A stretch of DNA of 64,000 bases, taken from assembly GCF_964204645.1 (NCBI RefSeq), contig NC_134030.1:9608278-9672277 (forward strand), given 5' to 3'. The notes beneath the pieces are model-generated. The model saw only the letters and a program-made list of their open reading frames with translations, did not search any database and was not told the origin of the DNA. Below, one piece after another: positions 918 through 11,071 of this stretch. A program made the position numbers and the translations under genes. The stretch is from Tubulanus polymorphus (taxonomy: Eukaryota; Nemertea; Palaeonemertea; Tubulaniformes; Tubulanidae). How positions within the stretch are numbered: the first letter of the stretch is position 1; the number at the start of each line of letters is the position of its first letter.

Positions 918-3900
918 TTGATCAGAGAAACGCGATGCTTGTTCGGGGAATCCGGCCCTCGTTATGAACTCGGCTACGTCATCGATCGTCCATTCGGTAG
1001 CGTCTTTACCCGCCAGACGCCCGTCCAGATCGATCTTCTTCAGAACTGATTCCATGAACTTCTTTTCGCTGAATTTTTCCCTGTTGATACAAGAATTACG
1101 TCGACGGAATATATTAGCATGCGGTATAATTTGGAGAGGTGTTTTTCTTTTTAGGACAGACGCCGAAGAATCGTGAAAACGAAAACAAACTTACTTGACT
1201 TTGACGTTCAAGTCGTCGTCGAAAGAAATCGGCGACTCGCACGGTGTAGGCAGGCACGAGGGACCTCCGCCTTCTGGCAAATTCGAAAAGAAAGAATAGA
1301 TTTAATCGTGATGCCACGTATTTTTTTAATGATTTCCCGGCGGGACACGGTTGACCGATTTCATCCGTGCCGTCGCAGAAAGTATGTACGTATACAGAAA
1401 GGCAGATCCACGGGGACTAATTTTGAAGGACGTGACAAGTCAAAAAGGGTGCTTTGATGTCGAAAGAGGGAATATCAAGCGCACTCCCGCGCGGCGCTGC
1501 AGGAGCTAATCAAACAACATACCCCCAGCTCTTCTTTGGTGACAATTTTTGTCGTAGGACCTGAACTGGTCACATCCCTTCCGGCACTTTGATGGTTTAA
1601 AAAGACAATATTAAGCGTAATCCCGCGCTGAAATGCACCAACTTTTTTGAAAAAAAAGGCACTCTAAATATTCGACGGATTCGTGGAAATCTCGTAAGCA
1701 CCCCTGGATCCGCCCCTGTATATACGTATATATAAACGAAACGATGATATTCTGAACGAGAAAAAACCACGAAACGGTAAGACGATCGCCGAGGCGGAAA
1801 TACACGTATGACGGTTCCGTTCTCTAAACTAACCCGTGTTGCAGGCATCCATTTCTTCATCTCTGTCCGAGGTATCGAGTCCGTTCTGCTGTTCCAACAA
1901 ACAACTGCTGCACTCCCAGAGACCTGCAATTTTATACAGCACAAAAATTATACGAGGGCAAGATCCACATCTTACAGGAAATGTACATATATGCATTCTA
2001 AAAATTATTTGATACCTTTCGGATTTTCGAGGACTTTCGGTTTATGGCACTGCATGTGATATCCCTTGTCACAAGCGTCGCAAAACAACAATTCAGCCTG
2101 GAAGTACACGCGAAGCACGTGTTAAGTTGCGAAATACGGTAAAGGGCTACGCTGTCGAAGATTTGATGGAGTTTAAATCTATAAGAGTTAAATGAATTGC
2201 TCTAAAACATCTAGTAGTCTTAATATAATGCCGTGTCACAACCATAAAAAAGAAAAAAAGTTTTTACGCGAGCCTAAAATGGTCTAACGTCGTTTTTGAA
2301 CAACCTGATGGATAGTATAATAACTACAATAGGACTTTGTGAATTGGTCGATATTTTCTTTGATAGCTTGGATAACATGTCCACCGCCACAAAAATTACA
2401 TAATTGAGGGTTGAAAAATATTTCTATTTTGCTATTTTTACCCGAATCCCGCCGAAATTTTAATTGTTTAAAAAAATTCGTGGCAAACGCGAGAGTGCCG
2501 AGGCACGAATCATATTGAATTTCAATAAGTGGTGCATTCCGTCTTGAAAATACATTTGTAATTGCATAAGGGGTTTTGATATAAGTACAAACTCTCGAAC
2601 ACTTACAGCCTCTCCTGCCTCTGAACAGAGACAGCACGTTTTGCATTCGTAACACTGCCACGGCGATCGCAGCGCCCTCTCTGCGAGATCACTCGAGTAG
2701 TTCATACAAGATGGGTGAACTGAAAAGAGAAGTTTTGTTTTTGAAATAAATTTTCGAAGAAGGGGACGAGATTAGATCGGGCATTTTCTTCGATTGCTTT
2801 CCCTACCAGTGCTGTTGCATTCTTTACACGTAAGCATGTCTTCGGGTTGTCCATCGCGATTCGTCTCCGGCGTCAGATAACACAGCCGACATTTAACCAC
2901 GTTCTCGTCGCCAGGAGGCGTTGGTTCGATATCCATGGCCTTTTCCTCCGCTGCAGGCGGTTGCGGTGACACAGTGACATTTTCTTTTTTCGCTTTCGTA
3001 GCGCCATTACTGGTGTTACCCGTCGGCTTCTGAAATAGTTTAAATTTTATAACGATGTTTAAGTTAGTTTCATTTCTTGGCTGGACAGCAAACCCGGTGT
3101 AACTAACGTCGATTCGATATTGAAATAAGCGTTAATTCGATGGTGACTCGAATCTTCGCTCGTTCAACGCTCGTTTAAGAGTTCAACCGATTTTTGACGC
3201 CGTAAAAATAATACTTTTATACATTGATAACAATTTTCAATTCTATTCTATACATTACGTCATCTACGGGGTACTGTGGAAGTCGATGTGCACTACGTCA
3301 TCAATATTTGCGTTTCCAAAAACAATAAAAATTGTGAATTTGGCGTTCGTTTTTACAATTACATACATTTCATGACTCTTACTCTTTATTTGATATACAT
3401 TTTCATGTCTTTTTCGAAAATGATTTCTGAGTGGATGTGTCCTACGTCATCAGTATTGAACAAGCTTGGTTAGACTGGTTGCCGGTCAAATCAATTCAAT
3501 GTCGATATACTAGAATTCAAAATAACTTTATCGTTCCTTGTTATCATTCATTGTCGATAATAAAGGTTATGTATAAATGTCATCATCGATGATGATATAT
3601 GTATAACATGTATATGCGTCATCTTTCTCCTAGACATCGATAAACTTTCAAGTTAGTTTTCGAACCTGACTCACGGTATCATCCACCAATGTTTTGCCAC
3701 ATCAGGAATATATACATATAAGTTACATTGTTTCATATCACATTAATATTGTCTCTTCGCAACCACGCATGCATACGCGATGAAAATGAATGGCGTTTTT
3801 TATCATCTCGGGCGAAGTTCTGTACGATCCACGTCGGACGCGGCGCTGTAGCACACGCCAGAACGCAGTATCCACATCGATTCACGTGCCGCTCAAAACG

Positions 3901-9900: not shown

Positions 9901-11071
9901 ATATATATATATATATATATATATATATATATATATATATATATATATATATATATGAAATTGAGTCGCGCTGGTGTTAATACACGAACACAAAATGATC
10001 GAATCGAAACCCCCGTCGGCTAAAGTTTACATCGGAATACGAGACTTTCGTCTGGCTGTCGGTTAGTATTTCCAACAATATCGGTGAAAAAGAAATGCAT
10101 ATATATATGTATATATAACGCACGAGCACGTATTACGTACAACATATATCTAGGTGAAAAAAGCTCACGCGTCAATAACGGGTGAAAGATGATTGCCTGA
10201 TGCGCGCCGCTTCAAAAAAGAGAGGAAAATTCGAGAAACGCTTTCTAATGATATAGATATACAAATAGATAGAATATTCAATTCGCTAATATGTATATAT
10301 TCATAAGTATAAAAACCTGGAAATAAGAAAAACATAATACCTGTCATAGAATTACACATTACACCGTTACAACATACTTACCCTTTTCTTATTAAGGGGC
10401 GGTCGACCCTTCTTGACCACTTTGCCAGGCGGCGGGGTTGGTGTTTTGGCGCTGAACGCAGCATTCTCCGTGTCCGCGCTGTTGTTTAGGCGGTCTCTGA
10501 TCGTCAGCGGACTGGCTTTTCTCTCGGCCGGGTCGACAAACACGTAGCGTTTGTTCGGCAGTTTTCTAATGCGCCCGGAGTCGACCTCTCTGTCTAGCGC
10601 CGTCGACAAATTGACCGCGTTGTCGGAGTTCTTCTTCAGCCAAGCCGTATTGTCCACGTTCACCTCGACCCATGCTTGGATATCTTGAAGACCGACGCCT
10701 TCGCAATCAGCGGATGACGACGACGGCAACTCTTGATCTGCGGGTTCGGTTTCTTTTGATTTAGACGCATTTATCTCTTCGATAGCGCGCTGTATGTACA
10801 CGCTCGTCTCGTTGGAATTCAAAACGTTTCCGCCTATTCCGCTCTTCTTCCATTTAGCCGCATTTCGATAACTGGTGCTACCTTTATATTCCACTTTGAT
10901 AACGAGTTCTAACTCGACTAAGCGCTCGAGTATCGACTCCGTTTCCGAACGATTCAGGCCGTAGCGACGCTGAACCATGTGCGAGATATGATCCAAATCG
11001 GGTCGCGCTTTTCGGTTCCTCAACTGGTCGATAACGCCTAGAATCGTATCCTTATGCTTGACCGCCGGCAT
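918..11071 (-). CDS. SAMD1/KAT6-type winged-helix, double PHD finger, SAM-domain chromatin protein (3' end off window)
   Basis: Exons in coding order: 10382-11071, 2807-3029, 2607-2719, 2016-2097, 1834-1923, 1195-1273, 918-1080. All have GT-AG borders and their phases join without a break (480 codons so far). Residues 1-75 form a winged helix of the SAMD1/KAT6 N-terminal type (RNRKARPDL, then [11 protein letters not shown]). In SAMD1 this fold binds unmethylated CpG DNA. Residues about 123-180 look like a second small globular domain, followed by a basic GRPPLNKKR stretch. Residues 277-382 are a double PHD finger with all zinc ligands, closest in wording to KAT6 ([44 protein letters not shown]); such fingers read acylated histone H3. 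From about 430 a SAM domain begins ([18 protein letters not shown]) and continues past the left edge. A start 33 codons upstream (11168-11170) is open, but the internal Met fits the family. It acts in the nucleus, by inference. No acetyltransferase domain is seen. Alternative: a divergent KAT6 or PHF10 relative. Confidence 0.82.
3191..3660 (+). repeat. TTTTTGACGCC-family MITE-like repeat, copy A
   Basis: This copy begins TTTTTGACGCCGTAAAAA and ends near ATCGATAAACTTTCAAGTT, a decayed form of the family right end GGCGTCAATAAA. It shares the internal GTGCACTACGTCATCAATAT motif and the GACTGGTTGCCGGTCAA segment with copies at 5703, 26511, 40563, 46617 and 57642. It is non-coding and lies in intron 1 of the winged-helix gene. 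Confidence 0.7.
5123..5281. repeat. imperfect tandem duplication (two units of about 75-90 bp)
   Basis: TCTTGTTTCGAGGTCTTA...ATTCGACAAAAAGATACTCGGGCAGT (5123-5175) recurs with a few changes at 5209-5281 (TCTCGTTTCGAGGTCTTATT...GACTCGGGCAGT). It is non-coding and lies inside the long first intron of the minus-strand gene. Confidence 0.5.
5703..6127 (+). repeat. TTTTTGACGCC-family repeat, copy B
   Basis: The left end is degraded (near CCGTCGTAAAAACCGTT) but the right end AAGGCGTCAATAATTTTTCGAG is clear. The internal GAGTCGATGTGCACAACGTCATCAAT segment matches the family. It lies in intron 1 of the winged-helix gene, in the same orientation as copy A. Confidence 0.65.
7543..7570. repeat. short CAG microsatellite
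   Basis: A short run of imperfect CAG triplets in intron 1 of the winged-helix gene. A related GCT-rich run lies at 4089-4130. Neither sits in a supportable coding exon. Confidence 0.6.
8692..9028. mobile_element. hAT-like MITE remnant
   Basis: It starts near TTGGCGGATCCAGAGCTTTG and ends GGATGCGCCCCTATA, a weathered pair of the GGGGCGGATC...GATCCGCCCC termini seen intact at 47797-48052. It has no coding capacity and lies in intron 1 of the winged-helix gene. Confidence 0.45.
9361..9785. repeat. tandem duplication of about 205 bp, two copies
   Basis: The segment from CAAATTGCGCTGCTATAG through the GTGTCGCCTGGAC motif (about 9364-9560) is followed by a second, diverged copy (about 9558-9785) sharing CAGACGATCGCG, CAACGGCTTTTA, TTGTTCGGG, TGGAATTCTTT and GTGTCGCCTGGAC in the same order. 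It is CpG-rich, carries no convincing reading frame, and ends right beside the long (TA)n array. Confidence 0.65.
9820..9956. repeat. (TA)n microsatellite
   Basis: A run of about 137 bp of TA dinucleotide, interrupted once by ACATAT near 9880. It lies in intron 1 of the winged-helix gene, directly after the tandem duplication. Tyr-Ile reading frames across it are artefacts. A shorter (TA)n run lies at 8489-8510. Confidence 0.95.

Follow-up and report, generated by a model that had tools for sequence, protein, structure and literature searches.

We analysed a 64,000-nucleotide stretch of DNA from Tubulanus polymorphus (hereafter the window, C6:9608278-9672277, where C6 is contig NC_134030.1), near the left end of which a minus-strand gene is predicted to encode two winged helices (WH1 and WH2), a double PHD finger (DPF) and a SAM domain in one chain. 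Our preferred interpretation, which we regard as reasonably probable on the basis of sequence, is that these domains belong to a single gene, probably a spiralian gene of the SAMD1 type, whose N-terminal half makes it a sister of KAT6 and whose product would act as a repressive scaffold that engages CpG DNA, the nucleosome and the H3 tail.

Seven exons within the window (11071 to 918) can be joined through GT-AG borders, all picked by eye so that the frame stays open, into a single open frame of 480 codons, which confirms the in-phase exon chain reported in an original prediction made for this DNA. An eighth exon completes a predicted protein of 524 amino acids with the layout WH1-WH2-DPF-SAM. 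An in-frame ATG at 11158, 29 codons upstream, is an alternative start for exon 1. A paralogue of this gene resides on another contig, C9, and is referred to in the following feature list where exons of the two copies can be compared.

Exon 1: 11071-10382, minus strand; 690 bp, ending in phase 0 at the donor GTAAGT; residues 1-230, with both predicted winged helices, followed by the basic tail KKGRP
WH1: 10844..11059, minus strand; residues 5-76, a predicted SAMD1-type winged helix
WH2: 10532..10819, minus strand; about residues 85-180, a predicted winged helix, H1-like, in which an acidic loop follows helix 1 as an insertion
Intron 1: 3030..10381, minus strand; 7352 bp, phase 0
Exon 2: 2807..3029, minus strand; linker and the first part of PHD1
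Exon 3: 2607..2719, minus strand; remainder of PHD1 and start of PHD2; 113 bp, equally long in C9
Exon 4: 2016..2097, minus strand; core of PHD2; 82 bp, of equal length in C9
Exon 5: 1834..1923, minus strand; end of PHD2 and linker
Exon 6: 1195..1273, minus strand; linker containing [10 protein letters not shown], of which C9 retains part as SCLLTPCDSP
Exon 7: 918..1080, minus strand; first half of the SAM domain; 163 bp, the same in C9
Exon 8: C6:9608236-9608102, 41 bases beyond the left edge of the window, minus strand; [44 protein letters not shown], the second half of the SAM domain, followed by a stop

Each of the three domain types named in the original prediction (winged helix, double PHD finger and SAM) is matched far above chance when the joined protein is searched against Pfam and PDB. 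The first 480 residues match the Pfam model SAMD1_WH (PF21524) with an E value of 1.2e-24 (86.6 bits, compared with a cut-off of 24.5) and a PHD model with an E value of 2.4e-15, and the completed tail matches SAM_1 at 2.8e-10. The KAT6 protein encoded in the same genome also passes the PF21524 cut-off. In a PDB sequence search, WH1 retrieves human SAMD1 (6lui) at 1.5e-16, whereas KAT6A (7y43) reaches merely 0.0032, and WH1 is identical to human SAMD1 at 35 of 69 positions versus 20 of 68 for KAT6A. The half of the SAM domain that lies inside the window matches the SAM domain of human SAMD1 at 1e-5, and the whole domain retrieves human SAMD1 (6luk, 4.8e-26), L3MBTL3 (5.3e-12) and PHC3 (9.9e-11), with 45 of 62 residues identical to human SAMD1. 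For the DPF, the corresponding search returns KAT6A (1.7e-29), KAT6B (4.6e-27), DPF3 (1.3e-24), DPF2 (2.2e-23) and PHF10 (7.2e-22). Six Pfam families match the joined 480 amino acids at E values up to 1, none of which is an N-terminal region of DPF1-3 or PHF10 (Pfam may have no model for each of these), and Pfam identified no MBT domain in these residues.

The second winged helix in exon 1, which is H1-like, is absent from the original prediction and was recognized through the C9 paralogue, KAT6 and predicted folds. The window copy of WH2 gives no Pfam match even at an E value of 10, and its nearest neighbor by Foldseek is the WH2 of MORF. A fold search with the model of the whole of exon 1 was uninformative on WH2, with matches to WH1 filling the list. 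The presence of WH2 is supported by moderate fold evidence, and this presence strengthens the link to KAT6.

Domain searches over the complete genome (267.8 Mb, 77 contigs) located SAMD1_WH at three loci (all three candidates scored), which are KAT6 on C4, the window gene on C6 and the gene on C9. The C9 gene carries a 771-bp exon for WH1 and WH2 that can end in phase 0, a distance of 8153 bp from this exon to the first sure DPF exon, and then seven exons for DPF and SAM. Exon phases agree with those of the window gene at 6/6 comparable borders, and three exons are equally long (113, 82 and 163 bp). The two copies are identical at 50/72 positions in WH1 (69%), 23/50 in WH2 (46%), 74/103 in the DPF (72%) and 47/70 in the SAM domain (67%), and at 9/48, 18/44 and 17/52 positions (19-41%) in the linkers; third codon positions are the most divergent in all seven stretches compared. 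Because the domains are more conserved than the linkers and third positions diverge most, both copies are likely to be functional genes of one layout. Between DPF and SAM, a motif SCLxTPCxSP is kept at window positions 1195-1273 and at C9:823684-823618 within linkers that have otherwise drifted, and this might represent a docking motif.

Since the C9 locus repeats, on a single strand, the WH exon, a gap of about 8 kb and the DPF-SAM exons, we consider a chimera of separate genes to be unlikely, and the window exons very probably constitute one gene, as the original prediction had proposed. In both copies, the DPF-SAM part was seen downstream of a WH exon. The original prediction had named a MYST acetyltransferase domain in the 3' exons then missing as a finding that would refute it, and this refutation did not occur. 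A genome-wide search for MYST returned 14 matches at four places, one of them directly downstream of the WH and DPF exons on C4, and none either in the window or at C9; together with the stop codon that follows the SAM domain in exon 8, this excludes a MYST domain at the 3' end of this gene model. The SAM search returned 11 matches among 13 candidates, with the best at C6 and C9, and the next match (C7:3637010, 1.5e-8) looks PHC-like. No SAMD1 gene lacking PHD fingers was found in the genome by this exon-wise search, whose counts are lower bounds. A SWIRM profile gave three matches in the genome, and a COX1 search gave none.

The residues expected to contact DNA and histone were compared next to those of characterized relatives. 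In a structure alignment, WH1 residues K21, R23 and K63 are in register with K24, R26 and K66 of KAT6A and are invariant in the three rows aligned (MORF and KAT6A residue numbers are treated as equal). The triple mutant K24A/R26A/K66A of MORF is reported to lose DNA binding (PMC9908889). The predicted CpG-contact residues of WH1 are retained at the level of sequence. In the DPF, the position of MOZ G237 is occupied by valine in both SAMD1-type copies (2/2) and by glycine in 8/8 rows of KAT6, DPF and PHF10 proteins aligned; in the window gene, the codon for this valine is split over the border of exons 2 and 3. G237 of MOZ is described as critical for the acyl-lysine pocket, and bulky residues at this position are described as blocking the pocket in classical PHD fingers (PMC7800603, PMC9329655). 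Positions S210, F211, N235, L242 and I260 of MOZ, numbered by our own count on the same alignment, are likewise changed in both copies. Residues that hold H3R2 (C281, D282 and D285) are kept, and the window copy retains E261, where C9 has D. Given the change from G237 to valine, the reading of acylated H3 that the original prediction suggested is unlikely, and a reader of unmodified H3 fits better. This change probably closes or narrows the acyl-lysine pocket, and we infer that the DPF reads the unmodified tip of H3 rather than acylated K14.

Trees of the individual domains speak to the kinship of the gene. In an unrooted tree of six WH1 rows, both nemertean genes and human SAMD1 are split from KAT6 and ZMYND11 (support 95/93), and the C6 and C9 copies group together with human SAMD1 outside (97/94). 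An unrooted SAM tree, again of six rows, separates both genes and human SAMD1 from L3MBTL3 and PHC (97/93). By sequence, human SAMD1 is the nearest kin of WH1 and of SAM among the relatives compared. The unrooted DPF tree of ten rows groups the SAMD1-type pair with KAT6 (95/100), and upon addition of a long KMT2 row (11 rows) the pair falls inside KAT6 (87/100 and 80/96). From the 29 PHD matches in the genome we examined the two SAMD1-type genes, KAT6, DPF, PHF10 and one KMT2-like gene. DPF introns 1 and 2 occupy the same places and phases in 5/5 genes (two SAMD1-type, KAT6, DPF and PHF10); we dropped intron positions as evidence of a KAT6 origin, as their pattern does not favor KAT6. At each of the three loci (C6, C9 and KAT6), one open frame encodes both WH1 and WH2. 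The kinship with SAMD1 and KAT6 suggested in the original prediction is supported.

These observations are consistent with an evolutionary scheme in which a WH1-WH2-DPF module would have been common to the ancestors of SAMD1 and KAT6. One copy would have kept or gained a MYST domain and become KAT6, and the other, with its SAM tail, would have become SAMD1. Vertebrate SAMD1 would later have lost WH2 and the DPF, such that it may be a cut-down cousin of KAT6. An 'intermediate or ancestral' form, as the original prediction put it, would by this reasoning be the more parsimonious placement of the nemertean gene.

As to function, WH1 would grip CpG in linker DNA, WH2 would occupy the nucleosome dyad, like its MORF counterpart, the unmodified tip of H3 would be bound by PHD2 of the DPF, and the SAM domain would oligomerise or dock repressors that carry MBT and SAM domains. 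The protein would in this manner hold deacetylated, CpG-rich chromatin with unmethylated H3K4 in a repressed state. Vertebrate SAMD1 is reported to repress genes with KDM1A, and its SAM domain to bind L3MBTL3 (PMC9944271, PMC11343471, PMC9032685); the product of the window gene probably represses as well. A similar reading of H3 by vertebrate SAMD1 would come from its KDM1A complex. PHF21A, a partner of LSD1/KDM1A, is described as a reader of unmethylated H3K4 (PMC11605454), and the nemertean protein may have a reader of this kind built in. More tentatively, and with somewhat less than even confidence, we propose that SAMD1 and KAT6 are sisters from a WH1-WH2-DPF ancestor, that the SAM-bearing branch turned into a repressive scaffold, the DPF of which shifted from acetylated to unmodified H3 by closure of the pocket, and that this animal keeps in one chain the CpG, dyad and H3-tail readers that vertebrates spread over SAMD1 and its KDM1A partners.

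Several observations weigh against this interpretation. Structure alignment ties the SAMD1 and KAT6A winged helices, with equal Z scores, as relatives of WH1. The fold evidence for WH2 is moderate (predicted local distance difference test score, pLDDT, of 69.7; no Foldseek match at an E value of 0.001; the window copy invisible to Pfam). Some of the changed pocket positions vary in PHF10 or DPF rows too, and valine is smaller than the Phe or Tyr of classical PHD fingers. The position of N274, an H3K4 contact in MOZ, holds another residue (E in the window copy, by our own alignment), and thus even binding of unmodified H3 is uncertain. The trees are unrooted and comprise 6 to 11 rows of short domains, and a long branch, of 3.1-3.6 changes per column, leads to the SAMD1-type pair. 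An approximately unbiased (AU) test leaves groupings of the DPF with DPF1-3 (p 0.152) and with PHF10 (p 0.15) unrejected. Identities of the window DPF are nearly tied among KAT6 (43-45/102-103, 42-44%), DPF (37-38/90, 41-42%) and PHF10 (38-40/98-101, 38-41%), as are those of the C9 DPF (40-42%, 39-40% and 38-40%, respectively). DPF intron 3 is found in 3/5 genes (two SAMD1-type and DPF) and not in KAT6 or PHF10. Because of these near-tied identities, the AU result and the introns, the kinship with KAT6 rests mainly on the WH1-WH2-DPF order and the winged helices, and less on the sequence of the DPF. Finally, the animal carries CpG-type winged helices in a genome with little or no CpG depletion: the ratio of observed to expected CpG is 1.43 in the window (1-64000) and ranges from 0.88 to 1.49 across 11 further stretches, each of 6-10 kb. 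CpG alone would therefore mark little. Should methylation of this genome prove sparse, the protein would owe its selectivity to its reading of nucleosomes and H3 and to SAM-driven avidity.

Three other explanations were considered alongside our preferred one. It is unlikely, though we give the idea some weight, that a plain WH-SAM form of SAMD1 took up exons for WH2 and the DPF in this lineage, with a KAT6 or DPF gene as donor, and was then duplicated, which would make vertebrate SAMD1 the older form. Such a fusion would agree with the description of human SAMD1 as a protein with two globular domains (PMC9944271), with the exclusion of human SAMD1 by the C6 and C9 copies in the WH1 tree, with the nearly tied identities of the DPF and with the sharing of its third intron with the DPF gene rather than KAT6. 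However, WH1 and WH2 share one open frame at all three loci, and a fusion would need WH2 and DPF to be inserted in KAT6 order between WH1 and SAM; it is simpler to suppose that one lineage lost its two middle domains. We find it similarly doubtful, and if anything slightly more so, that the protein is a KAT6-like reader half, either reading acyl-H3 as a co-activator or competing with KAT6 for the same CpG nucleosomes, which it would leave unacetylated. Its domain order up to the DPF is that of KAT6, and the MORF WH1-WH2 alone is reported to bind nucleosomes at nanomolar strength (PMC9908889). On the other hand, all six of the MOZ pocket positions considered above (S210, F211, N235, G237, L242 and I260) are changed in both copies, and the gene has a SAMD1-type SAM domain, the human version of which has been linked to repressors in published accounts (PMC9944271, PMC11343471). 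The competitor version is conceivable.

It is also highly improbable that a WH gene and a DPF-SAM gene, neighbors on the same strand, have been wrongly joined. The 7.35-kb intron is joined from genomic sequence alone, the donor of the C9 WH exon (GTTCGT) is weak, and the linker exon between WH and PHD1 in C9 is not settled. Moreover, when the exon 1 frame is continued past the donor, a stop follows after 4 codons in the window copy and after about 50 codons in the C9 copy, and a product with winged helices only is for this reason conceivable. Against two separate genes stand the repetition of the entire arrangement at C9 and the presence of a WH exon upstream of each DPF-SAM part.

Under the preferred reading, in which the window gene is of the SAMD1 type and sister to KAT6, its likeness to known systems is mixed. 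Vertebrate SAMD1 (atherin) has the same CpG-type winged helix at its N-terminal end and the same type of SAM domain at its C-terminal end, and it is the nearest kin of both by PDB search and tree; unlike that protein, for which orthologs in most vertebrates and a pair of globular domains are reported (PMC9944271), the nemertean protein has WH2 and the DPF between WH1 and SAM. KAT6A and KAT6B (MOZ and MORF) share WH1, an H1-like WH2 and the DPF in the same order. They differ in having MYST where the window gene has SAM, in a WH1 further from human SAMD1 than that of the window gene and in the glycine of the acyl pocket. DPF1-3 and PHF10 have a DPF of near-equal identity, with introns 1 and 2 alike and, in the DPF gene, intron 3 as well, but score lower in the PDB search. 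To our knowledge, these proteins carry neither a winged helix nor a SAM domain. Polycomb-type SAM proteins (PHC, SCM, L3MBTL and SFMBT) fall in the same broad SAM class and match more weakly than SAMD1. No WH-DPF-SAM protein is named in the titles and abstract openings of the open-access literature that we searched, and papers on the SAMD1 and KAT6A winged helices might hold an earlier mention. Sequence databases probably contain unnamed proteins of this layout.

If our interpretation is correct, it would explain why SAMD1 and KAT6 have in common an unusual CpG-binding winged helix, extend the history of SAMD1 outside vertebrates, and provide a natural pair of writer and repressor with CpG nucleosomes in common. 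With its altered acyl pocket, this naturally occurring double PHD finger also offers a test of the G237 rule.

Elsewhere in the window, a single minus-strand frame of 403 codons (50605-51813) encodes a rhodopsin-type G-protein-coupled receptor (7tm_1, E value of 5.2e-29). Two scanned pieces of a run of open frames on the plus strand (42179-44769) gave no significant Pfam match, and the last piece of this run is death-domain-like by eye; two minus-strand open frames of 140 and 265 codons (15636-17272) likewise gave no significant Pfam match. Rfam yielded 0 matches over the window at gathering thresholds. Long TA microsatellites, which read as IYIYIY frames, occupy approximately 9821-9954, 13190-13500 and 49700-49850. 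The contig of the window also holds a compact Hox cluster (C6:5318234-5634753) that points to a probable spiralian, with ten homeobox matches on one strand, among which are members that we take to resemble Lox5, Lox4, Lox2 and Post2.

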